Source: Acidobacteriota bacterium
Lineage (GTDB): Bacteria; Acidobacteriota; Terriglobia; Bryobacterales; Bryobacteraceae
Assembly: GCA_016215215.1 (NCBI GenBank)
Contig: JACRKW010000201.1
Span: 1 to 37,392, forward strand
DNA: 37,392 nt
Reading direction: 5' to 3'
Shown here: in pieces, positions 43 through 29,049 of the stretch
Layout: each line of letters opens with the position of its first letter
Numbering within the stretch: the first letter of the stretch is position 1
Program-made: the position numbers and the translations under genes
The notes under the pieces: model-generated
The model's input: only the letters and a program-made list of their open reading frames with translations
The model's database searches: none
Told to the model about the DNA's origin: nothing

Positions 43-533
<491 letters not shown>

Positions 534-537
<4 letters not shown>

Positions 538-1670: not shown

Positions 1671-1680
1671 GGAGCACAAC

Positions 1681-4876: not shown

Positions 4877-4896
4877 GATCGAGGAGGAAGCAAGAG

Positions 4897-5466: not shown

Positions 5467-5475
5467 AGGAAAACC

Positions 5476-5942: not shown

Positions 5943-5954
5943 GAGCAAGCTCGT

Positions 5955-8593: not shown

Positions 8594-9815
8594 CGCACCA
8601 CCCAGGCCCGCCGCGCCACGCCGCCTCCCCGTGATCGACGACTTTCCGCGTTACCACCGCGCACGCAAACTCACCCACCTGATTTGCTTCCTGATCTTCG
8701 TGGCGCTGCCGTTCTTCAACTGGATGCGCTTCGACATCCCCCGCCAGCGTTTCTACTTCGCCGGATACGAACTGTGGATCAATGAGTTCGGCATCATCTT
8801 CTTCACCCTGATGTTCCTCATGTTCGTCATCGTCGCTTCGTCGGTGGTTTACGGGCGTGTGTACTGCGGGTACCTTTGCCCGCAGATGATCTTTTCCGAA
8901 TCGAGCATTTACCTGGAGGACTGGATCAAACGGAAGGTGAACAAGCACCTGTCCAAGTGGCCTGCTGCGCGCCGCAAGCTCGCCGCGCGGCTGGCCTGGC
9001 TGGCCATCATCGCTGCCGCCAGTGTGGTGCTGGCCTTTGTCTTCATCGCCTATTTCGTGGAGCCGCGCGACCTGCTGGCCCGTCTGATGAGCCTGGACCT
9101 CCAGACAGCCGGCGGCATCTCCGGCGCTGTGGTGACGCTCATCGCCTTTCTCGATTTCACATTGGTGCGCGACTGCATCGAGTGCAAAAAGTGTATTCGC
9201 GTCTGCCACATGGGCATCGACATTCGGGAATCGCCGTTCCAGATTGAATGTGTCCACTGCGGCGAGTGCATCGATGCCTGCAACGAAATCCTCGGCAAAC
9301 TCGGCAAGCCCGGCCTCATCCACTACACCTGGGGTGAAACCGGCAACATCGTCGAGACCGAGACGTCCTGGTACAAGAAGCTGGGCCTGCGCGACGCCAA
9401 GCGCGTGGTAGTGATGCTGGTGACGTTGTTTTACTTGTCCGGGCTGTCCATCGCCTTGTCCATGCGGCGGCCGCTGCTGGTGCAATTGCAGCCCGTCCGG
9501 ACCACTATGTACCGCCTCGGTGATGAGGGTACGGTATACAACCGTTTCCGCATCAAGCTGGCCAATCGCGGCAGCGCGGATGCGCGCGTGCATGTAGCGG
9601 TCGAGGGGCTGCCCGGCGCCGTTATCGCGCTGGAAGCCAATCCCCTGATGCTCAAGCCCGGGGAATCCGTCGAGCGCGAATTCGAGATTGCGGCCCGTCC
9701 GTTCCAGGGTTCGCGCGACGTCAATCCGTTTCGAATTACCGTCGCCTCGGCGGGCCAGGATGCCGAGCGTTTCGACGAGACTTTCATCATGCCGCCGGAG
9801 GGTACTACCCATTGA
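8580..9815 (+). CDS. ccoG: Cytochrome c oxidase accessory protein CcoG/FixG
   Basis: 411 residues. The protein has an N-terminal membrane region (about 28-100) with YCGYLCP (C96, C100), further helices near 130-195, and a ferredoxin module with C199, C202, C205, C209 and C224, C227, C230, C234. A membrane helix near 280 leads into an Ig-like C-terminal domain (about 300-411). This is the full CcoG layout. CcoG is described as a cupric reductase that helps deliver copper to the CuB centre of cbb3 oxidase. It overlaps the preceding gene by 14 bases and its stop overlaps the TTG start of the next gene. Confidence 0.95.
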   Translation: MATPDAPPRPAAPRRLPVIDDFPRYHRARKLTHLICFLIFVALPFFNWMRFDIPRQRFYFAGYELWINEFGIIFFTLMFLMFVIVASSVVYGRVYCGYLCPQMIFSESSIYLEDWIKRKVNKHLSKWPAARRKLAARLAWLAIIAAASVVLAFVFIAYFVEPRDLLARLMSLDLQTAGGISGAVVTLIAFLDFTLVRDCIECKKCIRVCHMGIDIRESPFQIECVHCGECIDACNEILGKLGKPGLIHYTWGETGNIVETETSWYKKLGLRDAKRVVVMLVTLFYLSGLSIALSMRRPLLVQLQPVRTTMYRLGDEGTVYNRFRIKLANRGSADARVHVAVEGLPGAVIALEANPLMLKPGESVEREFEIAARPFQGSRDVNPFRITVASAGQDAERFDETFIMPPEGTTH

Positions 9816-9991
9816 GCCTCTATCGATTTGACAGCCGTGGGGCGTTTCTGCCCAAGTTCCTCGCCTTCATCATGCTGCTGTTCATCGGCATCCTGGTGGT
9901 CACCTACCTCATCGCCCGCCAGGCCGATCCGGTGATTCTCGACGACCAGGGCCACTACCGCACGGGCGGACATGCCTCGGGTGGTCGATGA
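9812..9991 (+). CDS. 59-residue minimal CcoH/FixH-like protein (TTG start)
   Basis: A short reading frame fills the space between ccoG and ccoI. It starts with TTG inside the ccoG stop (TTGA) and its TGA overlaps the ccoI ATG (ATGA). The product has a basic N-terminus, one membrane helix (about 15-34) and then ARQADPVILDDQGHYRTG. CcoH/FixH proteins have a helix followed by a similar ADPLVVDDYYKEG motif and normally continue with a periplasmic domain to about 150 residues. Here the protein stops just after that motif. Position, coupling at both ends and motif together support a real, shortened CcoH, needed for cbb3 assembly. Confidence 0.8.
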   Translation: MSLYRFDSRGAFLPKFLAFIMLLFIGILVVTYLIARQADPVILDDQGHYRTGGHASGGR

Positions 9992-12387
9992 GCTGTTCCC
10001 TTTGCGGTCTGCCTGCCGAGGCCGGTGCGCTCCACCGGGACTTCGGCGGTCAATCTCTCGCCTTTTGCTGCGTCGGCTGCATGAACGTCTACACGATTCT
10101 GTCCGAGAGCGGCATACTGGCCTCCGGCGCGGACTTCCGCCAGAGCGAGATCTACCGCGAGAGTCTCCGGCTTGGGCTGATCAGCCAGGGCCAGGCGCTC
10201 AAAGAAGAGCTTCCCGCCGGCGCCGAGATCCGCGAGGCCAGCTACCGGCTCTCTGGCCTGTGGTGCGCCTCGTGCGGCTGGCTGATTGAACACGCGCTAG
10301 CCTCGGTGACCGGCATCGTCTCAGCGGAAGTCCTCTTCGCGTCGGATTTGCTCCGCATCCGCTACTCGCCGCAATTCGTTCCGCCGGGTACCGTGGAGCG
10401 GCGGGTCGCCCGGCTGGGCTACAGAGCGGGACCCTTCACCGGGCAGACCGACGGCAGCCGCCAGGAGCGGCGCGACCTCCTGCTGCGCATTGGCATCGCC
10501 TTCTTCATCTGGATGAACGTGATGGTGCTCAGCCTGGTGATCTATGCCAGCTACTGGGAGTCCATTTCCGATACGGCGCGGCACGTCGTACCTCTGGTGC
10601 TGGCCGCGCTCACTCTGCCCGCCGTGTTCTATTCGGCCTGGCCCATCCTGCGCGTGGCGTTTCTGGGGCTCAAAGCGTTCACGCTGCGTATGGAAGCGTT
10701 GCTGGCGCTCGGCATCATCGCTGCGTTCGGCTACAGCGCGGCGCAGGCCTTCCTCGGAGGCAAGCACTACTATTTCGACACGGCCTGCGCCATCATCACG
10801 CTGGTGCTGCTGGGGAAGCTGTTGGAGCGCGGCGCCAAAGAGAAGACCTCCCAGGCCATCACGCTGCTCTACGGCATGATGCCCAACAAGGCGCGCCTGC
10901 TGGCCGAAGGCCACGAACGATTCGTCGCCGTGGAGACTCTCGCCGCCGGTGCTGTCTTCGTGGTGAAGACCGGCGAGCGGATTCCGGCCGACGGCGTGGT
11001 GGTCACGGGAGAGTCACACGTCGACGAGTCCATCCTCACCGGCGAGTCCGCGCCGCGTCAACGGCGAGCGGGCGATGAGGTAATCGGCGGCAGCCTGAAC
11101 ACCGGCGGCGTGCTGGAGATCCGCGCCGTGCGCGCGCCGGGCGAAAGCGCCATCAACTGCATCATCCGCTCAGTGGAGCAGGCCATGGCCAGCCGCGCTC
11201 CGATTGAACGCGTGGTCGATCGCGTTTCGCGGACCTTCGTGCCTGTCGTCATTCTCCTGTCGGCGTTCACGCTGGCAGGCTGGCTGGCTGTCGGCTTGCC
11301 CGCCGCGGACGCCTTGATGCGCGCCATCGCAGTGCTCGTCATTGCCTGCCCGTGCGCGCTCGGTATCGCCACTCCGCTTGCCGTTACCGCCGCCGTCGGC
11401 GCCGCTTCGCGCCGCGGTATCCTCATTCGCGACAGCCGGGTGCTAGAGGAGATCGGCAAGGTGGATTTGCTGATCCTCGACAAGACTGGCACTGTGACCG
11501 AAGGCGATTTCAGCGTGCTGGCCACCGAGCCGGCCGGATTTGACCTTACTCTGGTCGCGGCTCTGGAAGCCTACTCCGAACATCCGCTCGCGCGGGCGCT
11601 GGCGCGCGCATGTGGCGGCAAGACGCTGCCTGCGGTCACGGAGGTCCGCATCGTGAAGGGTCAGGGCATCGCCGGCGTCTGCCAGGGCAGGGAAGTGGCC
11701 GCCGGCAACAGGCTGTTCCTTCAGCCTGCCGGCATTCCGGATGAGATCGAGCGCCAGGCGCGCGCTTGGGAAGAAACCGGCTCCACCGTGACGTTCGCCG
11801 CTTACGACGGCCAGGCGGTAGCGGCCATCGGCTGCGGCGACCGGCTGCGGCCGGAGTCGCGCGGCGTGGTGGCCGCGCTGCACGGGCGCGGTGTGAAGAC
11901 CATCCTGCTCTCCGGGGACGCTGAAGCCACCACGCGGTGGGTGGCCTCAGAGATCGGGGCGAGTGATTTCCGCGCTGAAGTGCTGCCCGAGGGCAAGCGC
12001 GCCTTCGTCGAAGAGTGCAGATCAAAGGGGGCCACAGTCGCCATGCTCGGCGACGGGGTCAACGACGCGCCCGCGCTGGCCGCGGCTCACCTCGGCATCG
12101 CCCTCGGCTCCGGCTCCGACCTGGCCATGCAGGCCGCCCCGGTCGTGCTGATGAGCTCGTCCATCGGCCGCGTCACGGAGGTCTTCGACATCGCGCGCAG
12201 CACGCTGCGCGTTGTAAGGCAGAACCTCTTCTGGGCGTTCTTCTACAATGCAGCCGGCATAACGCTGGCGGTGACGGGAGTTCTCAACCCGATCCTGGCG
12301 GCGGGGGCAATGGTCCTTTCGAGCTTGTCGGTGGTGGGCAACTCCCTCCGCCTCAACTCCCGTATCGGCGGTCAAGCAAAGACATGA
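9988..12387 (+). CDS. ccoI: Copper-transporting P1B-type ATPase CcoI/CopA2
   Basis: 799 residues. An N-terminal metal-binding region has C3, C6, C27, C28 and C31, followed by a heavy-metal-associated domain with WCASC (C93, C96). The P-type core shows CPC at 454-456 in the membrane, the phosphorylated aspartate D498 in DKTGT, the SEHPLA nucleotide-binding motif and GDGVNDAP at 688-695. The CPC motif and the cysteine-rich N-terminus with FCCVGC mark the CcoI/FixI subgroup, which exports Cu(I) for cbb3 oxidase assembly rather than for copper resistance. The place in the operon supports this. Translation is coupled to the mini-CcoH upstream and the zinc-ribbon gene downstream. Confidence 0.95.
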   Translation: MSCSLCGLPAEAGALHRDFGGQSLAFCCVGCMNVYTILSESGILASGADFRQSEIYRESLRLGLISQGQALKEELPAGAEIREASYRLSGLWCASCGWLIEHALASVTGIVSAEVLFASDLLRIRYSPQFVPPGTVERRVARLGYRAGPFTGQTDGSRQERRDLLLRIGIAFFIWMNVMVLSLVIYASYWESISDTARHVVPLVLAALTLPAVFYSAWPILRVAFLGLKAFTLRMEALLALGIIAAFGYSAAQAFLGGKHYYFDTACAIITLVLLGKLLERGAKEKTSQAITLLYGMMPNKARLLAEGHERFVAVETLAAGAVFVVKTGERIPADGVVVTGESHVDESILTGESAPRQRRAGDEVIGGSLNTGGVLEIRAVRAPGESAINCIIRSVEQAMASRAPIERVVDRVSRTFVPVVILLSAFTLAGWLAVGLPAADALMRAIAVLVIACPCALGIATPLAVTAAVGAASRRGILIRDSRVLEEIGKVDLLILDKTGTVTEGDFSVLATEPAGFDLTLVAALEAYSEHPLARALARACGGKTLPAVTEVRIVKGQGIAGVCQGREVAAGNRLFLQPAGIPDEIERQARAWEETGSTVTFAAYDGQAVAAIGCGDRLRPESRGVVAALHGRGVKTILLSGDAEATTRWVASEIGASDFRAEVLPEGKRAFVEECRSKGATVAMLGDGVNDAPALAAAHLGIALGSGSDLAMQAAPVVLMSSSIGRVTEVFDIARSTLRVVRQNLFWAFFYNAAGITLAVTGVLNPILAAGAMVLSSLSVVGNSLRLNSRIGGQAKT

Positions 12388-12869
12388 TGGAATTCGACAC
12401 GATCCACTATTCGAAGTGCCCGATGTGTGGCATGGCAAGTTCGGCAGCCGCCGGTGCGTGCTCCATCTGCGGAGCAAGCGGGCTAGCACCTTGGCCGGCC
12501 GGTGCGGAGCTTCCGCTCGATCAGCGCCTGACAGCATCAGGCCGGCTTGCGGACGCCTATGCGCTTCTGCAGGACCAGGTCTCGCGCGTCCAACAGGATG
12601 CCCCCTCTTGCGTGCGCCTGGCGTGGCTTGCCTACGCCTTCGAGGACATGCGTGCCGTGGAAATCTGGTGCCACGAAGCCTCACGCCTGGACGGCGATTC
12701 GGCTGAACCGCATATGCTCCTCGGCCTCGAGTTCCAGCGCTCGGCTCGCTGGCCTGAGGCTTTGGAGGAGTACGGGGCCGCGCTCCGCAAGCCCGGCCTG
12801 TCCACGGAGAGACACGAATTGCTCACCCGCCTCTCTGCGGAGTGCCGCGGACAGATGCCGGAGTGGTAG
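12384..12869 (+). CDS. Zinc-ribbon protein with TPR-like helical repeats
   Basis: 161 residues. The start is the first ATG of ATGATG, overlapping the ccoI stop; the second ATG is also possible. Two CXXC knuckles (C12/C15 and C26/C29) form a small zinc ribbon. The rest is helical, with alternating Ala/Leu patterns resembling two or three tetratricopeptide repeats (about 45-155), including a LEEYGAALRKPG stretch. No signal peptide is seen, so it is probably cytoplasmic. It is the last gene of the oxidase operon and ends 6 bases from the convergent DUF2892-type gene. The function is unknown; an assembly or scaffolding role is only a guess from position. Confidence 0.8.
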   Translation: MMEFDTIHYSKCPMCGMASSAAAGACSICGASGLAPWPAGAELPLDQRLTASGRLADAYALLQDQVSRVQQDAPSCVRLAWLAYAFEDMRAVEIWCHEASRLDGDSAEPHMLLGLEFQRSARWPEALEEYGAALRKPGLSTERHELLTRLSAECRGQMPEW

Positions 12870-12875
12870 CCTGCT

Positions 12876-13064
12876 TCAGCCCTTGACGCCGGTCTTGCGC
12901 AGGATCGTCATCATCGGGCACCAGTTGGTGAAGGCGCTCTGAAAGAGGTTCAGGCCCACGAAGGCCGTGAAATAGAACCAGCGCGGGTCGTGCAGAATCC
13001 CCAGCGCCACGCTCAGCATGACGAAGAACCCTGCAATCATTCTCAACCATCGATCCACTGTCAT
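12876..13064 (-). CDS. Small DUF2892-type membrane protein
   Basis: 62 residues with two hydrophobic segments (about 8-23 and 28-45) and the pattern WLRMIAG, then FNLF-like and NWCPM, typical of DUF2892 (YgaP-type) inner-membrane proteins. The start codon overlaps the stop of the RND pump gene (ATGA), so it is the last gene of the efflux operon. Relatives are often next to rhodanese-like or metal-stress genes; the molecular role is not established. Confidence 0.88.
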
Positions 13065-16000
13065 CGTTGCTTCCCCTTGTTGAATATGTAATACACGATC
13101 GGCACCGTCATGCGCGACAGCGCCAGCGAGGCGATCTCGCCGGCCATCAGCGCGATAGCCAGCCCCTGAAAGATCGGATCGAACAGGATCACGATACTGC
13201 CCACTACCACCGCCGCAGCCGTCAACATCATGGGGCGGAAGCGGACGGCGCCGGCGTCGATCACGGCCTGGTCCAGCGGCATGCCCTCTTTCAGCCGCAG
13301 TTCAACGAAGTCTACCAGGATGATGCTGTTTCGCACCACGATGCCTGCGCCCGCGATGAAGCAGATCATCGAGGTGGCCGTGAAGAAGGCGCTCATCATG
13401 CCATGCGCAGGCAGGATGCCCACGAGCGAAAACGGAATGGCCGCCATGATCATCAGCGGCGTCAGGAAACTCTGGAACCAGCCCACCACCAGGACATAGA
13501 TCAGCACCAGCACGGCCGCGAAGGCGATGCCGAGGTCGCGGAACACTTCGTAGGTGATGTGCCACTCTCCGTCCCACTTCATCGAGTACTTCGAGTCCTC
13601 GAACGGCTGGCTGGCGGTGTGCTGCTCGATCTCGTAACCGCCCTCAACGGGCAGTTTGGCGATCTCCGGACCCAGTTTCAGAATCGCGTACACCGGGCTC
13701 TCCATCACGCCCGCCACGTCGGCGGTCACGTAGGTCACCGGCATCAGGTTCTTGTGGTAGATGCTCTTCTCCACCACGGTGTTCTCCACACGGACCAGTT
13801 CGGAAAGCGCCACCAGGTTGCCCGAGCGCCCTGCCACCTTCAGACCCTTCAGCCGCTCGAAGTCGCTGCGCGTGGCTCGATCCAGCCGCACCGTGATCGG
13901 CACGTCTTCTTTGGCTGATTCATCGTGAAGCAACCCGGCACCCATGCCGGCGGAGGCCAGAGTCAGCGCCTTGGCCACGTCTTCGGTCGAGACGCCGTTC
14001 AGTGCCGCTTTCTCGCGGTCGACACGCCACATCTGCTTCGGTTGGGCGTCTTCCACATACCAGTCGGCGTCGACGACACCATTGGTCCTGTCGAACACTC
14101 CCAGGATCTGCCCGGCAAGCCGGTCGCGCCCCTCTGCTGAAGGGCCGTAGACTTCGGCAACCAGCGTCTGCAGCACCGGCGGGCCGGGCGGCACCTCGGC
14201 CACCTTGATGCGCGCGCCAAAGGCCTTGGCGATCGGCGCCAGATTCTCGCGCACCTTTTTGGCGATGTCGTGACTCTTCAGGCTGCGCTCGCCCTTGCCC
14301 AGCAGGTTCACCTGAATGTCGGCCATGTGCGAACCGCGACGCAGGAAGTAATGGCGCACCAGGCCGTTGAAATTGTATGGCGATGCCGTGCCCGTGTAGG
14401 TCTGTACGTTCACCACCTCGGGCTGAGCGAACGTGGCTTCGGCCAGTTGGCGCGCCACCCGGGCCGTCTCCTCGAGTGTGGTCCCCTCGGGCATGTCCAC
14501 AATCACCTGAAACTCGCTCTTGTTGTCGAAGGGCAGCATCTTCACCTTGACGAACTCCACGTAGACCAGCGCCATGGAGCCCAGCAGCAGGCCGGTCACC
14601 ATGAGCAGGAAGCCGTAACGGTACAGAGGCACGTGCAGCAGCTTGTCCATCACCCTCCGGTAGGCCATCGTCACGCGATCCTCGCCATGCTCATGCCCGT
14701 GGCCCGTGTCCTGCTTGAGGATGCGCACCGCGGCCCATGGCGTTACCAGGAACGCCACGATGAGCGAGAAGACCATCGCCGCGGTCGAGCCGATCGGAAT
14801 CGGCCGCATGTACGGTCCCATCAAGCCGCCTACGAAGGCCATCGGCAGGATGGCGGCGATCACTGTCAGCGTGGCCAGAATCGTCGGATTACCGACCTCA
14901 TCCACCGCCTCCACCGCCACCTCCGCCAGGGGCCGGCCCGCGTTCTGCGGCAGCCGTGTGTGCCTGACAATGTTCTCCACCACCACAATGGCGTCATCCA
15001 CCAAAATGCCGATGGAAAAGATCAGGGCGAACAGCGTGATCCGGTTCAGGGTATAGCCGTACAGGTAGAACACGGTCAGGGTCAGCGCCAGCGTCACCGG
15101 GATTGCCGTGAACACGATCAACGACTCGCGGAAGCCCAGCACCAGCGCGATCAGCAGGCTGACCGAGACCACGGCGATGCCCATATGAAACAGCAGTTCG
15201 TTCGACTTCTCGGCCGCAGTCTCGCCGTAGTGACGCGTGATCGTTACCTCCACGTCGCGTGGGATCAACGACCCCTTCAATCCCTCCACCTTCTCCAGCG
15301 CCTTGTCGGCCACCGTGATCGCGTTGGTGCCCTTGCGCTTGGCCACTGAGATGGTCACCGCCGGCTCGAATTGGCCGCGCTCGGCGTACTGCACGTATTG
15401 CACGGGCTCTTCGCCGGTGTCCTCCACTCGCGCCACGTCGCGCAGAAAGACGGGGCGCCCGGCGGACACCGCCACCACCAGACCGCCCGCGTCGGCGGCG
15501 TTCTTGATCCAGCCGCCTGCCTCGAGCACCGTCTCCCGGTTCTTCGCGCTTGCCTTGCCTGCCGGGAGAACCTGGTTCGACATGCCCAGCGCGCCGGCCA
15601 CCTGCAGCGGGCTCAGGTTGTAGCCGCCAAGTCGCGCCGCGTCCAGCGTCACCTTCAATTCGCGCCGCTGGCCGCCCAGCAGCGTCACCTCGCTCACGTC
15701 GGCCACCTGCTTGATGGCGTCATGCACCTGAGCCGCCACTCGCCGCAGCTCAAAGTCGTTGTAGCGCTTCGAATGCAGCGTCAGCGCCAGAATCGGCACG
15801 TCGTCGATGGACCTGGGCTTCACCAGCGGCTGGCTGGCCCCGGGCGGGATCTTGTCGAAGTTGGCGTGCATCTTCTGGTTCAGCTTGACGATGCTCTTCT
15901 CTTCGTCCTCGCCGACCTTGAAGCGCACAATCGCGATCGCCCCCCCCGGCGAAGAGGTCGAGTAGACGTATTCGACGCCTGGAATCTCCCACAGGAACTT

Positions 16001-16231
16001 TTCCATCGGCGTGGTGACCCGCTGCTCCACCTCACGCGCGCTGGCCCCCGGCATGGCCACCATCACGTCGATCATGGGGACGATGATCTGCGGTTCCTCT
16101 TCGCGCGGCAGCATGAAGACGGAAAACGCACCGACCAGCAGCGAGCCGAAAATCACCAGTGGCGTGAGCTTGGAGTGGATCCAAGCGTGCGCCATGCGCC
16201 CCGCCAGGCCGAAAGAGGACTGTTCCTTCAC
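13061..16231 (-). CDS. RND-family efflux pump inner-membrane permease (AcrB/HAE1-like)
   Basis: 1056 residues, the normal RND size, with the duplicated layout of a first helix (about 22-42), periplasmic porter domains, a helix bundle from about 345, a second periplasmic loop and a last bundle near 900-1050. Helix 4 has [13 protein letters not shown] with D412 and D413, the proton-relay pair of hydrophobe/drug exporters. Heavy-metal exporters of the CusA type usually differ here. The substrate cannot be read from the sequence. It overlaps the adaptor gene by 4 bases and the DUF2892 gene by 4, so outer membrane factor, adaptor, pump and small membrane protein form one operon. Confidence 0.95.
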
Positions 16232-17400
16232 TGCCGCACCTCTACCTTCCCGCCGTCCACCAGGCCCACGGGCGCCGGCGCGGCCACTGCCTCTCCGGCG
16301 CTCAGCCCACTCAACACGGCAATCCTGCCCCCGTGTACTGTGCCCGTCGTCACCAGGCGGCCCCGCGCCACGCCACCCTGCACCACGTAGACTTTCCGCA
16401 CCTGGCCCATTTCCACCAGCGCAGCCAGGGGGATGGTGAGCGCCTGGCTGTGCCCGCCAGCGAATCGCGCCCGGCCGAACATACCGCTGCGCAGCATGCC
16501 GCCCGGCAGGCCGATCTTCACTGTGAACGTCCTGGAGCCAGCGTCCAATGCGGGTACGATCTCTTCCACGCGCGCATCAACACTTTTGCCCAGAGATTCC
16601 ACTTCCACCCGCACCGCCATCCCCGGCCTGATACTGCTCAGTCTGCTTTCCTCCACTGCCGCCTCCAGCCGGTAGTTGCCGGCCTGCTCAACCACCAGAA
16701 TCGGCATGCCGGGTGAGGCTAGCATCCCCGGTTCGGCTTTGCGCTCAATCACCATGCCCGCGAATGGGGCAGCCAACTGCGTGTAGCCCTTCATCAGCTC
16801 GGCCTGCGCCACCGCTTCGTCAGCCTGCCGGATCTTTTGTTCCAGTTGCGACATCTTCGCCCGTGCCATCTCGAAGTTCGCCTGGGCCATCCTTTGCCGC
16901 GCCGTGGCTTCGTCCATCTCCTGGGGGGTAATCGACTTCTGGTCGAACAGCGACTGCATGCGCTTGTGCGTTGAATTGGCCAGGTCCAACTGCGCCCTCG
17001 CCGCGACGATTGCGTTGTTCACCTCCGGTGTTGCGCTGCGTGCTTCGGCGCGCGAAGCTTCGGCCTGCCGCACCGCAGACTCCACTTCTTTCGCCTCCAG
17101 CACGGCCACCACCTGGCCTGCCCTCACGGCGTCGCCGGCCTGTACGCGGACCTCCCGGATGTAGCCCATCACGCGCGCCGAAAGTACAGACGTGGTTCTG
17201 GCCCGCACAGTGCCAGAGGCCTCATACTCATCCGGAATGCTCTCCTCGGTGACCTTCGCCACCTGCACCGGCACCGCCGCCGCTTCGCCGGCCTTGCTCG
17301 TACGGGCGGCCCTCTCACCGCCGCAGGCGGCCGTCGCCAAAGCCATTGCGGCAACAGCCGCGCCCACCGTCCATTTATTCCAGAACATTGGAGTCTCCAT
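16228..17400 (-). CDS. RND periplasmic adaptor (membrane fusion) lipoprotein
   Basis: 390 residues. A lipoprotein signal ends in LATAAC, so the mature protein should be tethered to the inner membrane through that cysteine. The body follows the HlyD/AcrA plan of a barrel-sandwich lipoyl half, a long helical hairpin rich in Ala/Glu/Gln (about 115-200), the second lipoyl half, a beta-barrel and a membrane-proximal domain. Two starts are possible: this ATG, preceded by AGGGA, and an ATG four codons later (17388) preceded by GGAG, which would give a tidier signal peptide. It overlaps the outer membrane factor gene by 26 bases and the pump gene by 4. It links the pump to the outer-membrane channel. 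Confidence 0.93.
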
Positions 17401-20056: not shown

Positions 20057-21142
20057 CTACCGTCCCTTGAGGTGCGCCAGCAGGTCCGCCATCTCAGCGG
20101 TTTCGAACCGCGGCCAGGCTATGCCCTTCGCCTTCATCTCCTTCTGCATGGCAGGCCCGTGGCCCCACAATACGGCGATCATCTCGTACGATGTCGCCTT
20201 TTCGCCCAGAGCCAGCACCGGCGCAATGCCTTTGCCGTGGCAGTTGCCGCAGCCCTTGGCCTCGAACACCTTGGCGCCGCGAGCCGCGTTCGCCCCTTCA
20301 TTGGCGAACTGCAGTGCCCAGAGATAGCCCACCAGGCGCTTCATCTCTTCCGGCCGGATCTCCGCCCGCTGCTGCATCTTGGCTGAGTGGTTCCACATGC
20401 CCGCTGCAAAGTCACTGGCTCCGCGGAACTGCGGGCCCTTGACCAGCGCGTTCGCATCGCGGTGGCAACTCCTGCACCCCTTCAGCTCGAACAGCATTTC
20501 ACCGGTGTCAGGAGCTGCGGGCTGGAACTGGGGCTTCATGCCGCGCGTGGCCGGCAGGTTCTGCAGGTACACCGTAATGTCGTTCATCTCGGCGGCCGTC
20601 AGTTGCGGCTGCCTCATCCCCTTGGCCTTCATCGCCTCCCGCATCTTGCCCGAGTGGTTCCACATCTGCCGCGAAAGCTCGATCGGATCGGCCACCGACT
20701 CCCACTTCGCCACCGCCGGTCCTGCGGAACTGGCTCCGCCGCTGATGGAGTGGCACTCCGAACATCCGCCCTTGGCAAATGCCTCGCGGCCTCTGCCCGC
20801 GTCACCCTTGCGTTCGAAGTAGCGCGCCGCGTAGAAGTAAGCAAACAGGTCCGCCGCCTGCTCGCTGCTCAACTTCGGCTTGGCGACGTTCGCCTTTTCC
20901 ATCGCGCTCCACATCGCCGGTGCGTGATTCCACATCAGCGAGGTGAGCTCCGACGGCGTGTAGCCGCGGCTCGCCCGCTTCCCAAGATCCGGACCAGCCT
21001 TGCCGCCCTCTCCGTTCACGCTGTGGCACGTGACGCAATTCTGGCTCTTGAATACCTCCGCGCCGCGCGCGGAGTCACCCACCAGCACTGCACCCTGAAC
21101 AGCCGTCGATACGACGGCCAATAGCGCATAGAGCTTCTTCAT
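20057..21142 (-). CDS. Periplasmic tetraheme cytochrome c with four tandem repeats
   Basis: 361 residues with a cleavable-looking signal peptide (about 1-18). Four CXXCH sites lie at C36, C127, C223 and C298, each starting a repeat of roughly 80-100 residues. Each repeat continues to a conserved MWNH (LWGH in the last) followed three residues later by Met, at M77, M167, M256 and near 338, which could supply distal haem ligands. It is last in the conduit operon, 60 bases after the outer-membrane barrel gene, with a GGGGAGG ribosome site. I infer a soluble periplasmic carrier between inner-membrane complexes and the outer-membrane conduit. No named family is recognised beyond cytochrome c. Confidence 0.9.
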   Translation of the reverse strand: MKKLYALLAVVSTAVQGAVLVGDSARGAEVFKSQNCVTCHSVNGEGGKAGPDLGKRASRGYTPSELTSLMWNHAPAMWSAMEKANVAKPKLSSEQAADLFAYFYAARYFERKGDAGRGREAFAKGGCSECHSISGGASSAGPAVAKWESVADPIELSRQMWNHSGKMREAMKAKGMRQPQLTAAEMNDITVYLQNLPATRGMKPQFQPAAPDTGEMLFELKGCRSCHRDANALVKGPQFRGASDFAAGMWNHSAKMQQRAEIRPEEMKRLVGYLWALQFANEGANAARGAKVFEAKGCGNCHGKGIAPVLALGEKATSYEMIAVLWGHGPAMQKEMKAKGIAWPRFETAEMADLLAHLKGR

Positions 21143-21169
21143 TGTCGGGAACCTCCCCTAACTGTCAAC

Positions 21170-21193
21170 GGGGAAGGGCGGCGGCCCCTCCCC
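21170..21193 (-). other. Intergenic hairpin between barrel and tetraheme genes
   Basis: Ten-base arms GGGGAAGGGC and GCCCCTCCCC with one mismatch and a 4-base loop lie in the 60-base gap. No T-run follows on the minus strand, so it looks more like an mRNA-stability or partial attenuation element than a full terminator. Confidence 0.45.
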
Positions 21194-21202
21194 TGTGATC
21201 CA

Positions 21203-23320
21203 TTAAAGCAGGAACCGGAGCCCGCCCATGTACATGTGTGACCGGAATCCTTCGTAAGTGTAGAAGTACGGCTGCGACAGCCCGTAGTAGCGCCACTCGG
21301 AGAAGAACTCCAGCTTCGGCGTCACCGGAAGTTGGATCCGGCCCTGCGGCTGGTAGTAACGCGACGGCCGCGAACCGGCCGTGGTCACCAACGATCCGCC
21401 GAACGTCAGCTTCACCTCATGGCTCTTGGCCACAGGCAGCCGCACGTCGGCCAGCAGCATCCCCGTGTTCGCGTTGTCGGCGTACAAGGAGCGCACGTTG
21501 AACAGCCCCAGCGGGTACAGGTAGCTGATGTCGCTTCTGATAGTCGACCGCGAGTAGTCCGCCAGGATGCTCAGGCGCTTGCCGCCCTTGGGCATCCACT
21601 GCAACTGCGCCGAGGTCGCCTGCGACCGGTAGTCATAGTTGATCCCCTTGTTCGGATTCTGGTTCTCGAAGCGCGTGTAGATCATGTTGAAGAACATGCT
21701 CGCCGGCAACGTCACCCGGCCCTGAAGCCGGTACTTGGTGGTGTCCATCAATCCGATCCGGTAGTAGGTCTTCTCGCCGTCGCCAACCTCGAAATCGCCG
21801 TTCACCGTCAGCCGGCTGAACGGTCTGGCCATGAACCCGGCCAGCAGCACGCCGCGCTTCAGCTCTCCGCGTTCGTATTCGGGCCCAGGGACGAAGGGGT
21901 CCGACTTCATCAGTGACGAGCCCCACTCCCAGCGGTAGCCGCCGCGCAGCATGAAGTTCTTCGACAGGTCGAACAGCGCTTCCAACTGCTCCCGGCTGCG
22001 CGTCGATTCCAACCGCTCGCCGTCCGGCGTGATGGTCAGAACCGGCACCGCGGTCAGTGACGGATACATCATCGAACGCTCAGTAGCCGTGCTGTTGATC
22101 ACGAAGCGGTCCGTCTCCCACACCTGCCGGATGCGGAGCCGCGAGCCCGCCCGGATTTCAGCCGCGGCGGTGCCGGAGGTGCGTGGCCCGCGCGCGTTGC
22201 CATAGACATAATCCACCGCCCTGGCGTAGAGCAGGATGCTCCCCGCCTCGGCGAAGTTGCCCGTCTGTGTTTGATTGAGCTCGCCGAAAGTCTGCGGCTG
22301 GCTGCGCACGAATGCGCCGGACAGGTCCAGCCAGTTGGCCGGATTGGCCGTGATCAGGCCCTTTGTGTAGGCGCCTGTTCCGCGGATCCGGTACGACTGC
22401 CCGCCGCTGGCTAGCGTAAGTTGCTGGCCGAAATAGGGAGACGTCCGGTTGCCGGTCAGGGCTTGCGTGGAATAGACGGACTGGTTGTCGTCAAACCACG
22501 TGCCGCCCTCTTCCAAGGTGGCGTGCCAGCGGCGCATCTCGAATCTCACGCCGCCGCGAACCTCCTTCTGGCCCCAATCCACAACGTTCCGCAAAGGATA
22601 CTCGTTGCCGTTCTGCACCAGCGGCGTGATGCCGCTGCCGAGACTCGAGTTCCTGGAGAAACCGAAGTAGGGCACAAACCTCGCTCCCGGCATGAGTTGC
22701 AGTTCGTTATCGAAGTTGCTGATCGCTGTATCGTAGGCCCGCTGGTTCAGAAAACTCCCAGTGGCCCGGGACGGGTCGGCGAAGGAGGGCAGGTGGTTGT
22801 AATAGGCGATGTTGGAGTAGTTCCCGTTGTAGCGGTACTTGCCCCGCTTCAGGATATCCAGGCGCGCTGTGTTGTACGGGTCGCCGCCCCAGTTGGCCGC
22901 CTGCAGGCGGAGTGAGTCCACCAGCTTGTTGCCCGCCGGTTCGTAACCCACGTCCAATCCCACCAGCCGCAACCCCTGCGAGAGGTTCACCATGCTGCGG
23001 TATGTGTTAAAGTCGCCTGCCCGGCCCACCCAGCGCGCGCCGGCGTCGATGTAGCCCGTGAAGGCCTTCTCCGTCTTCGGCGCGGGAGCTGCCGCCTTCT
23101 CGTCTTTCTTCTCCGGCGCTTGCTTCTCCGGCGCCTGTTCCGGCACAGCCAGGCCCGGGGCAGGCGAGGTCATGCTCACCTTCTTCACCCGCGCCTTGCG
23201 CGCCTTGGAGCCGCTGGCCTTCGTGTGCCCGGCCGTAGCCGGACTGTTCGCTTCCTTCTTGATGGCTGGCTCTCCCGACAGAAGCGTGAGCGGGAGCAGC
23301 AGGGCCAGGTAGGATCTCAT
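21203..23320 (-). CDS. Outer-membrane beta-barrel of MtrB/PioB type (porin of a porin-cytochrome conduit)
   Basis: 705 residues from the ATG at 23320, which overlaps the stop of the decaheme gene (ATGA); a longer in-frame start lies inside that gene and is rejected. A signal peptide (about 1-17) is followed by a Lys/Ala/Pro/Glu-rich linker (about 20-85). The remainder alternates aromatic and polar residues as in amphipathic beta strands and ends in GGLRFLL, the C-terminal strand pattern of barrel proteins. The length equals that of MtrB (about 700 residues, a 26-strand barrel). No cysteine remains in the mature protein, so the N-terminal CXXC of Shewanella MtrB is absent. The MtrB/PioB assignment rests on size, fold pattern and the two decaheme neighbours. 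Confidence 0.78.
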   Translation of the reverse strand: MRSYLALLLPLTLLSGEPAIKKEANSPATAGHTKASGSKARKARVKKVSMTSPAPGLAVPEQAPEKQAPEKKDEKAAAPAPKTEKAFTGYIDAGARWVGRAGDFNTYRSMVNLSQGLRLVGLDVGYEPAGNKLVDSLRLQAANWGGDPYNTARLDILKRGKYRYNGNYSNIAYYNHLPSFADPSRATGSFLNQRAYDTAISNFDNELQLMPGARFVPYFGFSRNSSLGSGITPLVQNGNEYPLRNVVDWGQKEVRGGVRFEMRRWHATLEEGGTWFDDNQSVYSTQALTGNRTSPYFGQQLTLASGGQSYRIRGTGAYTKGLITANPANWLDLSGAFVRSQPQTFGELNQTQTGNFAEAGSILLYARAVDYVYGNARGPRTSGTAAAEIRAGSRLRIRQVWETDRFVINSTATERSMMYPSLTAVPVLTITPDGERLESTRSREQLEALFDLSKNFMLRGGYRWEWGSSLMKSDPFVPGPEYERGELKRGVLLAGFMARPFSRLTVNGDFEVGDGEKTYYRIGLMDTTKYRLQGRVTLPASMFFNMIYTRFENQNPNKGINYDYRSQATSAQLQWMPKGGKRLSILADYSRSTIRSDISYLYPLGLFNVRSLYADNANTGMLLADVRLPVAKSHEVKLTFGGSLVTTAGSRPSRYYQPQGRIQLPVTPKLEFFSEWRYYGLSQPYFYTYEGFRSHMYMGGLRFLL

Positions 23321-24291
23321 CTCAGCAACGCCCCATTCGCATTCGATCCGTGAATCTTCTGGTGGCAGATCGTGCAATTCCGGTACCGCGGACTGCGCAG
23401 ATCGTGAATCGCCGGCGGGATGCCGCCCACCGTCGTGGCCGGCGGCGCGGCCTGAATGTTGGAGTGGCACTCCAGACATAACGGAGCGATCTCAGCCCGC
23501 TTCAGCATCCGCGGATTGGTCGAGCCGTGCGGTTCGTGGCATGTCGCACAGGACTCGTTCCTCGAAGGAGCGTGTTCGAACACGAATGGACCGCGCTTCT
23601 CGCCGTGGCAGGCGAAACAGCCCGGCTCGTTGCCGCCCGACAGGCGCAGGTTCCTGTTCATGAAACTCGCGTGAGGATTGTGGCAGCTCGTGCAGCTCAT
23701 CGCGCCCTCCGGCAGCTTGTGCCGGTTCGGCTTCTGGAACGCCGCCCAGACGTCCGGGTGGCAGCTGGCGCATGCCTTGTTTACTCCGGCAGTCCGCTTC
23801 AGTTGGAACTCGCTCGACTCCTCGCCTTCCCTGTGCATGTTGTGGCACGACGTGCAGGGCACCGCGTTTCTGGCGTGGCTGCTCTGCAACCGGCCCACAT
23901 GCGTCGGCTGGTTCTTGTGGCAGCTCAGGCACATCGTGTCGATCTCAGCCGCCCGCATCCTCTTCGGGCTGCGGATGTCTTCGGCCGAATTGGTCTCAGC
24001 GTGCACCGATCCGGGCCCATGGCACCCCTCGCAGGCCTTGCCGTCAAACCCGCGCTTCTTGTTCGTCTCCAGCGCCGAATGCGGGTTCTTCTTGAAACCG
24101 GTGCTGATGTCCTCGTGACAGGCCGCGCAGGTCTCCGACCCGGCGAACTCCTTCTTGACCGCCTTGGCGTCCTGCTTGGCCGCGGCCTTGTCGTCTGGTT
24201 TCTGCGGCGCCGCCTTCTGGTCCTGGCGGGGCGCCGCAGTTAACGCCACCGCCAGCAAGGCGGTTGTCAACAGCGGTAACCGGAATCGCAT
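23317..24291 (-). CDS. Decaheme c-type cytochrome, DmsE/MtrA family
   Basis: 324 residues starting at an ATG with GGGAG five bases upstream; a TTG four codons earlier contains that ribosome site and is rejected. After a signal peptide (to about residue 20) and a Lys/Ala/Gln-rich linker come ten CXXCH sites at C55, C87, C121, C146, C174, C200, C225, C248, C272 and C306, the number and density of MtrA/DmsE. Pairs such as CTSCHNMH and CTSCHNPH supply extra histidines for bis-His ligation. MtrA-type proteins thread into the MtrB barrel and carry electrons through the outer membrane. The barrel gene follows with a 4-base overlap, as expected for a complex. Confidence 0.93.
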   Translation of the reverse strand: MRFRLPLLTTALLAVALTAAPRQDQKAAPQKPDDKAAAKQDAKAVKKEFAGSETCAACHEDISTGFKKNPHSALETNKKRGFDGKACEGCHGPGSVHAETNSAEDIRSPKRMRAAEIDTMCLSCHKNQPTHVGRLQSSHARNAVPCTSCHNMHREGEESSEFQLKRTAGVNKACASCHPDVWAAFQKPNRHKLPEGAMSCTSCHNPHASFMNRNLRLSGGNEPGCFACHGEKRGPFVFEHAPSRNESCATCHEPHGSTNPRMLKRAEIAPLCLECHSNIQAAPPATTVGGIPPAIHDLRSPRYRNCTICHQKIHGSNANGALLR

Positions 24292-24313
24292 GAATACTCC
24301 CAACTATGAGAAA

Positions 24314-24341
24314 GGGCAGGTCCTCAATTGAGGACCTGCCC
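24314..24341 (-). terminator. Perfect 28-base palindrome between the two decaheme genes
   Basis: GGGCAGGTCCTCAA joined directly to its reverse complement, 14-base arms with no unpaired loop. On the minus strand it is followed by TTTCTCAT, a weak U-rich stretch. It lies in the 66-base gap between the OmcA/MtrC-type gene and the DmsE/MtrA-type gene. It could be a leaky intrinsic terminator that lowers downstream expression, or a processing site. Confidence 0.6.
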
Positions 24342-24357
24342 GTATTTTAGCCGCTAA

Positions 24358-26493
24358 CTACTGTGCGTGCACTCTGGCCACCGAGAACTCGGCGTTTGGC
24401 CCGTGACAGGCCGCGCAGCTCTCGCCCAGCGTCGTCGTGTTCGCCAGCGCGTGCGACGCAGCTTCCTTGCTGGCGTGACACGCTAGACATGCAGCCGTGG
24501 TCGGCCCTGCGGGCGTGAGCCAGCCACGAGGATCGGTCACGCTCGCCGTCCCCTTGGCAGGCACCGCCTCGGTCCCGGCCACGTGGCACATCGTGCACTT
24601 TGCCGTAATCGCAGGAGGCGGGAAAACAGCCTTGCTGAAATCCGCTGCCCCGCCACGTCCGTAGAGGATGTAGCCGTTGGGCTGCTCCTCGCCGGTGTGG
24701 ATGCGGTGCACCATCGACGCCATGCTGATCGACTCGGCCGGCATCTTGTCCGCCGGCCGGCGTGCCGCGTCGGTCATGGCCGGATTGTGGCAGATCACAC
24801 AGCTCTCCACGACGTTCCGGTTGAAGCCGTGGAGCGCCAGGTTGGCGTGGCAGTTGTTGCAGGTAGTCGTGTTCGCCACGGTCCGTCGCGGCGCCACCGT
24901 GCTGCCGTCAACCGAGAAGTACCGTACCTGGTTCGGCAGATTTACCTCGACGATGCGTTCCTTCAGCGTCCCGGCGAGAACCTTCTCGTCCGAACGGCCT
25001 TCAATCTGCATGACCCAGGTGCCCTTGGCATCCGCCGGGATGGCTGTTGCGATGGTGTACTTGTACAGGCCCGGCGTGCCGGTAAACCCGGTGGTCGCCG
25101 TCGGGGCGTCCTGCACGTAGCCGGCCGTGGTTGCCGTGGAAATGCCCTTGCCGTAGTCGCCGCCCGTCAGCGCCGCCAGCGTGAAGCCGATGCGCCCGCG
25201 GCCCGCGCCCGGGATCAGTTCGTTGATGTCCATGGCCTTGCCCGACTTGTCCGTCAGCGAGAATGTGATCGTCGGCTTCTGGCCCGGCTTGGTGTTCTCG
25301 ATGTTGACGAACTTGGCGATCACGCCGCGCACCAGGGCTGATTCCTGCTCCACCACGTGAGCGCCCTTGATCGAAGCGTCAAAGTCGATTTCACCCTGAG
25401 GGATATGGCAGCTCGCGCACTGGTTGTCGCTCGGCTGCGGCAGATTCACGTGACCCTGTCCGGTCTGGAAGTTCACCTTGTCGTGGCAGGCGCCGCAAGC
25501 CGCGCGCGACGGCTCGGTCAGCCAGTTGTCCTTCTGCGCCGCCTGCTCGTTGCCCTTCTCGTGGCACCACTGGCAGTTGTTCGTCCCCGACGGCATGTTG
25601 ACGTAGGAGAAATCACTGATCGCGTTGCCGAAGCCGATGATCTGGTACGGCTTCCCACCGGTTACGCTCGGCAGCTGCGATCCCATGTGGATCTTGTGGA
25701 TCATCACCGTCATGTCGATCGTGTTGTCCGTTTCCGGATTCAGGTTCGAGACGATCTGGCCGCCGGTGGTGTACTGCGGCACGTGGCAGATCACGCAGGA
25801 TTCCACGCCTACGCGCGAGCCGCCATGGAAGCGAAGATTGTCATGGCACTTGTTGCACGACGCGCTCTTGAAGACCTCGCGTACCTTCTTCACCGGCGTG
25901 CCGTCCGGCACAAAGTTGTAAATGTCGGTCGCGTAGTTCGTGCTCATGCCGAACTCGCTCAGGTTCCGGCTGCCGTACACCATGATCGTGTGTGTCGCGG
26001 TCTTGGCATACCCTGTCGGCAGCTTGAGCCCGGAAGTGTACACATACTCACCGTCGGCCACCTTCGCGTATGTTCCACCCGTGTCGGATGACGCCTGCCG
26101 CGCCTGTTTTCCCGCCGTCGGCGCATACGTGCTCGTCTTCAGACGCGTCGTGTAGGGCTGCTGCCACTTCGACTCGTTTGGAATCATCGAAAGCACGAAA
26201 CTTGTGCTCACCGTTCCCGGCGTGTTAATTCCTTCGCGTTCCAGCGGCACGCCTTTCGGGTCCGTCATCTTGAACCGGACCTTCACCGTGCCGTCAGTCC
26301 CGATCTCGTGGCTGACTATCTTGAACACCAATCCGGGACGCACGAAGTTGGCCGTCGCCTCGTCCGCGTAGTACGCCTTGTCTTGCGGGGTGAAGGGGGA
26401 TTGCGTCGAACTGACCAGTGCTGTCGATGCCACCAGCACCATCACCACGAGCGCCCACTTCATCCAGCCGCCAGAGCGTGAATGCATTCGCAT
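24358..26493 (-). CDS. Decaheme c-type cytochrome, OmcA/MtrC family
   Basis: 711 residues from an ATG preceded by GAGGAG; a longer in-frame start at 26589 would extend across the promoter and is rejected. After a signal peptide (hydrophobic core about 11-28) the order is a beta-rich domain (about 50-205), five CXXCH sites (C213, C233, C307, C333, C359), a second beta-rich domain (about 375-535) and five more sites (C545, C565, C633, C669, C693). This is the four-domain, 5+5 haem plan of MtrC and OmcA. The two pentaheme halves are visibly alike, for example ESCVICH in both. Family members sit on the cell surface and exchange electrons with minerals or other acceptors. No lipobox cysteine is present, which is unusual. 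Confidence 0.95.
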   Translation of the reverse strand: MRMHSRSGGWMKWALVVMVLVASTALVSSTQSPFTPQDKAYYADEATANFVRPGLVFKIVSHEIGTDGTVKVRFKMTDPKGVPLEREGINTPGTVSTSFVLSMIPNESKWQQPYTTRLKTSTYAPTAGKQARQASSDTGGTYAKVADGEYVYTSGLKLPTGYAKTATHTIMVYGSRNLSEFGMSTNYATDIYNFVPDGTPVKKVREVFKSASCNKCHDNLRFHGGSRVGVESCVICHVPQYTTGGQIVSNLNPETDNTIDMTVMIHKIHMGSQLPSVTGGKPYQIIGFGNAISDFSYVNMPSGTNNCQWCHEKGNEQAAQKDNWLTEPSRAACGACHDKVNFQTGQGHVNLPQPSDNQCASCHIPQGEIDFDASIKGAHVVEQESALVRGVIAKFVNIENTKPGQKPTITFSLTDKSGKAMDINELIPGAGRGRIGFTLAALTGGDYGKGISTATTAGYVQDAPTATTGFTGTPGLYKYTIATAIPADAKGTWVMQIEGRSDEKVLAGTLKERIVEVNLPNQVRYFSVDGSTVAPRRTVANTTTCNNCHANLALHGFNRNVVESCVICHNPAMTDAARRPADKMPAESISMASMVHRIHTGEEQPNGYILYGRGGAADFSKAVFPPPAITAKCTMCHVAGTEAVPAKGTASVTDPRGWLTPAGPTTAACLACHASKEAASHALANTTTLGESCAACHGPNAEFSVARVHAQ

Positions 26494-26782: not shown

Positions 26783-27619
26783 CTACCGCACGTCCAGCCC
26801 CACCCGGCACACGTGCCGCAACGATTCCTGCTCCATCTCCCGGTAGGCCCGGTTCCGCCGCGTCAACTCATCGAAGTCCACCAGGTGCGCGTCAAACTCA
26901 GGCCCGTCCACGCAGGCGAACTTCACCTCGTTGCCAACCGTCACACGGCACCCACCGCACATCCCCGTCCCGTCGATCATCACCGGGTTCAGGCTTGCGT
27001 GTAACTTCAGCCCCCAATCCCGCGTGGCTTCCGCAGCCGCCTTCATCATCGGAATCGGTCCGATCACGTGCCCCTCGGTGAACGTCCCCGGCCCCGCCAG
27101 GCTCTTCAGCAACTGCACCACGTTGCCATGGAAACCGAACGTCCCGTCGTCGGTGGCCCACTGCAATTCATCCACCGCCGCCTTCAGCTCCTCGTCCAGA
27201 ATGCGGTAACTGTCCGATCGAGCTCCGCACAGCGCCGTCACGTGGTTGCCCGCGTCGTGAAACGCCTTGGCTACCGGCAGGAGTTCAGCTACGCCCACGC
27301 CGCCCGCCATGCATACCACCCTCTGTCCGGTGGTCATCGTCGCCGCCTCTCCCAGCGGCCCCACCAGGTCGCACAGAGCGTCACCCGGCTCCAGCGCCAC
27401 GGCCTCCTTCGTCGTCTTTCCGATTGCCTGAATCACCATCGTGATCGATTGCCGCTCGGCGCTGGAATCTACAATCGTCAGCGGGATCCTCTCGCTCTCA
27501 GCCAGCGGCCGGATGATAATGAACATCCCCGGCTTCCACCGCTTCTGGATGCGCGGCGCCTCCACCTCCAGCAACGTCACCTCGGGAGCCAGTTGCCTCT
27601 TTGCCAGTATCCGGTTCAC
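26783..27619 (-). CDS. Ferredoxin-NADP+ reductase-like small subunit (NfnA/SudB type)
   Basis: 278 residues. An FAD-binding beta-barrel with the RIPLT motif (R44), an NAD(P)-binding part with AGGVGVAELLP (about 105-115), and a C-terminal [2Fe-2S] site built from C221, C224 and C236 plus the preceding acidic region (DGTGMCGGC). This is the NfnA/SudB/PyrK-like layout. It overlaps the large-subunit gene by 4 bases. Such pairs act either in flavin-based electron bifurcation (NADH-dependent ferredoxin:NADP+ oxidoreductase) or as sulfide dehydrogenase/NADPH:acceptor reductase. Sequence alone does not choose between these. Confidence 0.88.
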   Translation of the reverse strand: MNRILAKRQLAPEVTLLEVEAPRIQKRWKPGMFIIIRPLAESERIPLTIVDSSAERQSITMVIQAIGKTTKEAVALEPGDALCDLVGPLGEAATMTTGQRVVCMAGGVGVAELLPVAKAFHDAGNHVTALCGARSDSYRILDEELKAAVDELQWATDDGTFGFHGNVVQLLKSLAGPGTFTEGHVIGPIPMMKAAAEATRDWGLKLHASLNPVMIDGTGMCGGCRVTVGNEVKFACVDGPEFDAHLVDFDELTRRNRAYREMEQESLRHVCRVGLDVR

Positions 27620-29049
27620 TGCGCCACCTCCACCTCGGCCGCCACGCCGCTCAGTGCTTCATGGATCGCCTGCGCCGCCAAACGGCCGTCCTTCATCGCC
27701 AGGATCACGGTCGATCCGCCGCGCACCACGTCGCCGCCCGCAAACACGTGCGGCATCGACGTTTCGCCTTTGGTGTCCACCACGATCTTGCCCCGCTTGG
27801 TGATCAGGGTCGGCGTCGCCTTCTGCAGCGTCGGATTCGGCGCCTGGCCGATCGCCGCCACCACCGTGTCTACCGGAATCCTGTGCTCGCTCCCCACGAT
27901 CGGCACCGGCGACCGCCTTCCGCTCTCATCCGGCTCGCCCAACTCCATCCGGATGCACTCCACTTCTTTCACATACCCGTTCTCGTCGCCAAACAGAGCC
28001 ACCGGAGCCGCCAGGAACTCGAACCTCACGCCCTCTTCCTCGGCGTGCTCGATCTCTTCCAGGCGCGCCTTCAACTCCGCCCGGCCGCGCCGGTACAGTA
28101 CCGTCACGTCGCTGCCCATTCGCTTGGCCCATCGCGCCGCATCCATTGCTGAATTGCCGCCGCCCACAATGATTGTGTGCGCGCCCACCCGCACCGGCGT
28201 CGGCGCGTCCGGGAACTTGAAAGCCTCCATCAGGTTGATCCGCGTCAGAAACTCGTTGGCCGTGTACACGCCCACCAGGTTCTCGCCCGGGATCCCCATC
28301 ATGTACGGCAATCCCGCGCCCGTGCCGATGAATACCGCCTCGAAGCCTTCCTCGAACAATTCATCCAGCGTCGCCGTCTTGCCGACGATGAAATCCGCCT
28401 CGAACTCCACTCCCATGTTCTGCAGCCGGGCGATCTCCTCGTGCAGGATCTCCCGCGGCAGGCGGAAGTTCGGAATCCCGTAGGCCAGCACACCGCCGAG
28501 TTTGTGCAGCGCCTCGAATATCGTCACCCGGTAGTTGTTCCGCACCAGATCGTAGGCCGCGATCAACGACGCCGGCCCGCTGCCCACCAATGCCACTTTC
28601 TTGCCGGTCGGCTTCGGATAGCTGTGCGCCAGCTCCTGCATCCTCAGGCGCGCATGGTCGGCCGCAAACCGCTCCAGGCTCCCAATCGCCACCGGCTCCC
28701 ACTTCTTGGCCACGATACAGGCGTCTTCGCAGAACAGCTCGTGCTGGCAAACCCGCCCGCACACACCCGGAAACGGGCTCTGCTCGCTGATCACGTCGTG
28801 CGCCGCCTGGTACTCGCCCTCGGCCAGCCGCGCGATGAACCTCTTAATGTCTATATGGATCGGGCAGGCGTCGATGCAGGTTGGTTTGGCGCACTGCAGG
28901 CACCGTTGCGCCTCTACACGCACCTGCTCGGGAGTGAATCCCAGCGCCACCTCCTGCGATGTAACGGCTCTAACCTCAGCATTCAAAACAGGTAAGATCT
29001 GCCTGGGCGCCTTCGGGTTCGGTTTGTAACTGAGCGGCTGGACTGCCAT
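27616..29049 (-). CDS. GltD-type flavoprotein large subunit (NfnB/SudA type)
   Basis: 477 residues. Two N-terminal [4Fe-4S] sets (C50, C53, C58, C62 and C97, C101, C107, C111), an FAD Rossmann motif GSGPAS (about residue 156), an NADPH motif GGGNSAMDAAR and a C-terminal GGDVVRGG. This matches the protein often annotated as homotetrameric glutamate synthase (NADPH). With the NfnA-like partner next to it, a two-subunit NfnAB or SudAB enzyme is the better reading. A TATAGC (29060-29055) lies five bases before the ATG and may be a -10 element giving a leaderless mRNA. The end of the pair is 289 bases upstream of the cytochrome conduit genes on the same strand. Confidence 0.9.
   Translation of the reverse strand: MAVQPLSYKPNPKAPRQILPVLNAEVRAVTSQEVALGFTPEQVRVEAQRCLQCAKPTCIDACPIHIDIKRFIARLAEGEYQAAHDVISEQSPFPGVCGRVCQHELFCEDACIVAKKWEPVAIGSLERFAADHARLRMQELAHSYPKPTGKKVALVGSGPASLIAAYDLVRNNYRVTIFEALHKLGGVLAYGIPNFRLPREILHEEIARLQNMGVEFEADFIVGKTATLDELFEEGFEAVFIGTGAGLPYMMGIPGENLVGVYTANEFLTRINLMEAFKFPDAPTPVRVGAHTIIVGGGNSAMDAARWAKRMGSDVTVLYRRGRAELKARLEEIEHAEEEGVRFEFLAAPVALFGDENGYVKEVECIRMELGEPDESGRRSPVPIVGSEHRIPVDTVVAAIGQAPNPTLQKATPTLITKRGKIVVDTKGETSMPHVFAGGDVVRGGSTVILAMKDGRLAAQAIHEALSGVAAEVEVAQ

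Follow-up and report, generated by a model that had tools for sequence, protein, structure and literature searches.

We analysed a 37,392-nucleotide contig from an acidobacterium of the order Bryobacterales (JACRKW010000201.1, assembly GCA_016215215.1; its full length is hereafter called the window) and found that four genes on its minus strand almost certainly encode an MtrCAB-type porin-cytochrome conduit. The cluster comprises genes for an OmcA/MtrC-family decahaem cytochrome (mtrC-like), a DmsE/MtrA-family decahaem cytochrome (mtrA-like), an MtrB-like outer-membrane barrel and a tetrahaem cytochrome (cytc4). With cytc4 as its periplasmic feeder, the conduit is likely to be supplied by an ImcH-type quinol dehydrogenase and to carry electrons outward to Fe(III). 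The MtrCAB type with a tetrahaem gene is already known as Group 5, to which the window adds a member; new here are the candidate ImcH-type quinol dehydrogenase, the assignment of the barrel by its fold, and the removal of an argument drawn from an oxidase cluster in the same window. Soils are rich in Acidobacteria. The link to ImcH provides a testable inner-membrane partner, lacking in the published description of Group 5, and gives grounds for expecting electrons to flow outward; cultured Paludibaculum fermentans is available for testing it.

Four genes of an MtrCAB-type conduit

An earlier inspection of this DNA (the sequence-only reading) had proposed an outer-membrane electron conduit at this locus. 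The four open reading frames were recovered at the coordinates claimed, all on the minus strand (Table 1), and every countable detail of that reading proved correct, including the strand, the numbers of haem motifs, the two groups of five motifs, the Cys-free barrel of 705 residues and a 4-base gene overlap. The numbers of CxxCH motifs are 10, 10, 0 and 4 in the order mtrC-like, mtrA-like, barrel and cytc4, and shuffling the three cytochrome sequences yielded 2 at most. Comparison with relatives revealed that mtrA precedes the barrel gene wherever the contig extends and that mtrC almost always precedes mtrA. The mtrC-mtrA-barrel order is kept across Bryobacterales, and this conservation excludes a chance arrangement. 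Protein families, barrel fold and kept gene order thus support the claim that this acidobacterium encodes an outer-membrane conduit of the MtrCAB type.

Table 1. Features of the conduit locus and its upstream neighbours (window coordinates)
Feature	Position	Strand	Evidence
cytc4, predicted periplasmic tetrahaem cytochrome, 361 aa	20057..21142	-	four PF00034/PF13442 stretches each, 4 CxxCH
MtrB-like outer-membrane beta barrel, 705 aa, no Cys	21203..23320	-	fold match to 6r2q_B and position behind mtrA
mtrA-like, DmsE/MtrA-family decahaem cytochrome, 324 aa from ATG 24291	23317..24291	-	TIGR03508 243 bits (cut-off 192), 10 CxxCH
Terminator-like mtrC-mtrA intergenic hairpin, T-rich tail	24305..24343	-	-31.9 kcal/mol folded with flanks
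mtrC-like, OmcA/MtrC-family decahaem cytochrome, 711 aa	24358..26493	-	TIGR03507 491 bits (cut-off 209), PF22113
NfnAB-like gene pair (FAD/NAD-binding subunit and GltA-like subunit)	26783..29049	-	PRK06222 353 bits, TIGR01316 561 bits

Analysis of the MtrC-like protein indicated that its ten CxxCH motifs fall into two fives (residues 213-363 and 545-697) and that all 20 Cys residues lie within haem motifs, leaving no extra Cys pair; such a pair, spaced CX5C, is found in three of 13 homologues. Its predicted model is of low confidence (predicted local distance difference test [pLDDT] of 62) and was used for match ranking alone, in which the 15 best Foldseek matches in the PDB were all OmcA, UndA, MtrC or MtrF. 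For the mtrA-like gene, the best start is the ATG at 24291, which is preceded by GGGAG, while the longest open reading frame begins at the TTG at 24303. Its product matched 6r2q_A in the PDB with an expectation value (E) of 3e-41, and this chain is the partner of the barrel 6r2q_B in the solved Mtr complex. The ATG of the barrel gene, at 23320, overlaps the mtrA stop codon by 4 bases (ATGA).

The barrel sequence, single or as a profile, gave no useful match in the PDB and matched no Pfam family at E 1, including the TonB receptor and plug domains. A structural model built from 17 sequences (mean pLDDT 78) consists of about 82 disordered N-terminal residues with strands thereafter, and its best match among solved structures was 6r2q_B, that is, MtrB (Foldseek E 2e-18). 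A second aligner superimposed 565 residues of the two at 3.7 Å with Z 25.1. TonB receptors came next, with Z of at most 17.1 and larger deviations; the earlier assignment of the barrel to the MtrB type rather than to TonB receptors therefore holds. The predicted fold is shared with Shewanella MtrB, although structural alignment of the two gives an identity of only about 12%. As it scores far below the cut-off of the MtrB/PioB sequence model TIGR03509, the barrel is not filed under that model but is described as MtrB-like by predicted fold and context.

The cytc4 gene lies 60 bp downstream of the barrel gene and is also found downstream of it in relatives. The protein is composed of four monohaem class-I domains. 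Comparison of 11 homologues revealed an invariant W-x-H in each domain, and the Met after it is not invariant in the third domain; judging from these residues, the haems may be bis-His ligated. Baker et al. 2022 (PMC8805035) refer to this type of protein as "c-cyt group 5".

In that survey, MtrCAB clusters were described in 148 species; Group 5 was found in Acidobacteriia only, unclassified or of the Bryobacterales, and all its members carry a predicted periplasmic tetrahaem cytochrome gene immediately downstream of mtrB (PMC8805035). The window cluster, with clustered mtrC, mtrA and mtrB, is assigned to Group 5 by taxonomic order, gene order, the position of the tetrahaem gene and the published description, and it comes from a new species. 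The gene order with a tetrahaem cytochrome, which the sequence-only reading had singled out, is therefore the defining trait of a known group and not new. Earlier work on Arctic peat had proposed a role in iron reduction for acidobacterial MtrA and MtrC homologues (PMC3669403). In many other Bryobacterales, unlike Group 5 as reported, an imcH-type gene adjoins the cluster or lies within it, and the tetrahaem gene is absent from some.

Two decahaem cytochromes and one barrel are shared with the Shewanella MtrCAB complex (6r2q), of which MtrA is matched by the MtrA-like protein. Set against general knowledge of the Shewanella system, the MtrC-like protein differs in having neither a lipobox nor Cys outside its haem motifs, and the added tetrahaem cytochrome is of class I instead of the small c3-type fold. 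The MtoAB and PioAB systems share the decahaem MtrA homologue and the barrel but are without MtrC, whereas an OmcA/MtrC-type cytochrome is present here; no gene for PioC (a high-potential iron-sulfur protein [HiPIP]) or MtoD is annotated beside the barrel.

A candidate ImcH-type quinol dehydrogenase

The sequence-only reading had called the electron path complete, which goes too far, as the window is without a gene for an inner-membrane quinol dehydrogenase. This agrees with Group 5 clusters, near which no inner-membrane quinone oxidoreductase has been reported (PMC8805035). A candidate emerged from a Candidatus Solibacter locus (L042), where a membrane cytochrome beside the conduit has three transmembrane segments, an atypical CX3CH and five CxxCH motifs; it matched the NrfH model below its cut-off (E 5e-12) and the NapC/NirT model just above its own. 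Members of the ImcH family are characterized by three transmembrane segments with an adjoining atypical CX3CH and five to nine CX2CH motifs, have so far been seen in Fe(III) reducers only and are implicated in quinol oxidation only (PMC6295460). L042 also has a bc module behind its conduit; this was considered as the general quinol link but rejected, since no second locus of the kind showed it.

We sampled 200 Bryobacterales genomes, 132 with the barrel and 68 without. An ImcH-type gene was present in 120 of the former and 10 of the latter (Fisher 1e-27, not corrected for ancestry). It lies no more than 9 kb from the barrel gene in 46 genomes of 20 genera (as grouped by kinship), on the same strand in 39, while by our own estimate chance linkage in a 6-Mb genome would be expected in well under one in 120 cases. 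Twelve genomes (L139-L150) carry a contiguous, one-strand mtrC-mtrA-barrel-cytc4-imcH cluster, and in other genomes imcH is placed ahead of mtrC and cytc4 is absent. The signature of two to four transmembrane segments, a CX3CH first haem and at least five CxxCH motifs was found in all 29 loci checked.

The genome to which the window belongs (G000, 85% complete) has its ImcH-type copy on another contig than the conduit (G000:C101:17158-18573; 53% identical). With three transmembrane segments, a CGQTCH first haem and five CxxCH motifs, this protein fits the family definition and shares these traits with Geobacter ImcH. It lies beside another multihaem gene and a gene for a 19-haem protein with four transmembrane segments (L083, G000:C101:8000-27900, 9120-17319). 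The NapC/NrfH family PF03264 includes CymA. No match to it was found in G000 at E 1e-5, so that a CymA-type protein as in the Shewanella system was not found at this threshold; as the ImcH-type gene present in the same genome was missed as well, PF03264 is too insensitive a marker for the ImcH-type family.

In one genome (G044), an ImcH-type domain, four three-haem repeats (12 haems) and MtrA share a single open frame of 1164 residues with 27 CxxCH and one CX3CH (L087:3811-7305, G044:C12). A signal-like segment stands ahead of its MtrA part, so a processed fusion and a sequencing error are both possible. In G062, the ImcH part is likewise extended by 12 haems, the first 17 haems forming one gene, and is followed by a separate mtrA.

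In the published survey, no mtrAB or mtoAB gene adjoined imcH (PMC6295460), whereas the two adjoin in many Bryobacterales; no report of imcH beside mtrCAB was found in the literature searched, which did not extend to subscription papers. We consider it fairly probable that Bryobacterales possess a hybrid chain, undescribed before, in which a Geobacter-type ImcH passes electrons through a tetrahaem class-I cytochrome to a Shewanella-type MtrCAB, encoded by one five-gene cluster in several lineages and, for ImcH, 12 haems and MtrA, by a single frame in one genome. Of this five-gene set, four are in the window, and on balance the ImcH-type protein is probably the main donor to the conduit.

Direction of electron flow

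In the proposed mechanism, menaquinol would be oxidised at the inner membrane by the ImcH-type cytochrome encoded elsewhere in the genome (G000:C101:17158-18573), and the electrons would be passed to the periplasmic tetrahaem cytochrome. In an assembled complex the barrel would enclose the MtrA-like protein, whose ten haems would lead the electrons on to the MtrC-like decahaem protein at the cell surface, which may deliver them to Fe(III) minerals or similar acceptors. Outward flow is likely. The window genome groups in one genus with P. fermentans P105T (G006), which reduces Fe(III) (PMC8407742) and has all four genes in identical order, with a barrel 63% identical in the matched part. Because this congener reduces Fe(III) and carries the same four genes, outward flow is likelier than Fe(II) oxidation. 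The sequence-only reading had rated donor oxidation as possible as metal reduction, a balance that is too even in view of this congener and of the co-occurring dehydrogenase of the ImcH family.

Several findings weigh against an ImcH-fed, outward conduit. The barrel reached only 17.9 bits on TIGR03509 (cut-off 240). Among the barrel and its sixteen homologues, this model matches three of 17 at E 1 (best E 9e-4); as the homologues fail too, the model misses the barrel family, and surveys relying on it will undercount conduits, since this acidobacterial family escapes it almost completely. The signal peptide of the MtrC-like protein has no lipobox, here and in relatives, and anchoring is thus not evident. 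The co-occurrence statistic ignores shared ancestry, 12 barrel genomes have no ImcH match at the threshold used, and in the genus of the window the imcH homologue does not adjoin the conduit but lies 68 kb to 273 kb away (G003, G005 and G006). In addition, MtrCAB can run backwards (PMC8805035), and direction is not legible from sequence.

Inward flow, in which Fe(II) or another extracellular donor would feed the surface cytochrome, then MtrA and the tetrahaem cytochrome, and finally a bc/cbb3-like complex encoded at the start of the window, is unlikely, although it fares best among the alternatives. The MtrAB homologues of the Pio and Mto systems do run inward (PMC8805035), a Rieske/cytochrome b/multihaem c/CcoN-like cluster is present at window 43-4876, and in G001 and G011 a related bc module forms part of a second conduit operon. 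However, the CcoN-like homologue of P. fermentans is 2.57 Mb from the conduit, and no close homologue was found in the congeners G001, G003, G004 and G007 (G001 and G004 being fragmented), all of which have the conduit. The pairing with an oxidase, on which the sequence-only reading had built its case for Fe(II) oxidation, thus loses its force, and the window oxidase cluster was rejected as the conduit's partner for want of linkage in relatives. Moreover, no RuBisCO match was found in the 85% complete window genome, the OmcA/MtrC-type surface cytochrome is unlike Pio and Mto, the genus includes a demonstrated Fe(III) reducer, and the role of ImcH in quinol oxidation only also speaks for outward flow.

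A role in which the conduit supplies a specific extracellular reductase instead of minerals, as in the DmsEF-DmsAB system, is very unlikely. The MtrA-like protein matches the DmsE-family model TIGR03508, and a second DmsE-barrel pair without mtrC is found at G000:C109; however, the name of that model also covers MtrA, and no molybdopterin reductase gene is annotated in the window, which instead encodes a full surface cytochrome of the MtrC family. That the barrel is a TonB-dependent receptor or an unrelated porin, a mere neighbour of the cytochrome genes, is highly improbable: it misses the TIGR03509 cut-off and has no PDB sequence match, but its predicted fold comes far closer to MtrB than to TonB receptors, it is without any Pfam match, and it stands always directly behind mtrA in relatives.

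Neighbouring features and further conduit operons

The hairpin between mtrC and mtrA, on which the sequence-only reading had been silent, is strong and GC-rich with about 12 pairs, and its stem is kept in four congeners through wobble pairs and one U-A/C-G exchange. It is a possible attenuator and could raise the level of the mtrC transcript above that of the other genes. The NfnAB-like pair lies directly upstream of mtrC, a position kept in congener loci (L031, L034 and L035), and is inverted yet nearby in other genera; these genes are conserved neighbours and are not claimed for the conduit.

The unusual bc-cbb3-like cluster at window 43-9815 encodes a Rieske protein, a cytochrome b (ExtP/ExtQ-like), a seven-haem cytochrome, a CcoN-like subunit (3476-4876; below the ccoN cut-off), a GltD-type oxidoreductase and a CcoG-like protein. 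It is present in some congeners only, in which it has no linkage to the conduit. A second operon, for a conduit of another kind, is conserved in two genera (L089, G001:C133:1-19900; L104, G011:C213:4000-23900), in the order mtrA, barrel, 7-haem protein, 9-haem MtrC, GltD-type protein, Rieske and cytochrome b, the last being 61% identical to that of the window. In G001 the operon continues with an 8-haem c, a 1-haem c and cytc4, while L104 ends inside a subunit-IV gene.

G000 also holds parts of a second conduit at contig ends: an OmcA/MtrC-family gene (43% identical; L063, end of G000:C70) and, following the C-terminus of a barrel, a cytc4 homologue (50%; L062, end of G000:C247). Another locus of G000 (L061, G000:C109:8000-22000, 5375-8190) has a DmsE/MtrA-like gene with a distant barrel behind it and no mtrC, and most of the genomes sampled from the class have similar pairs.

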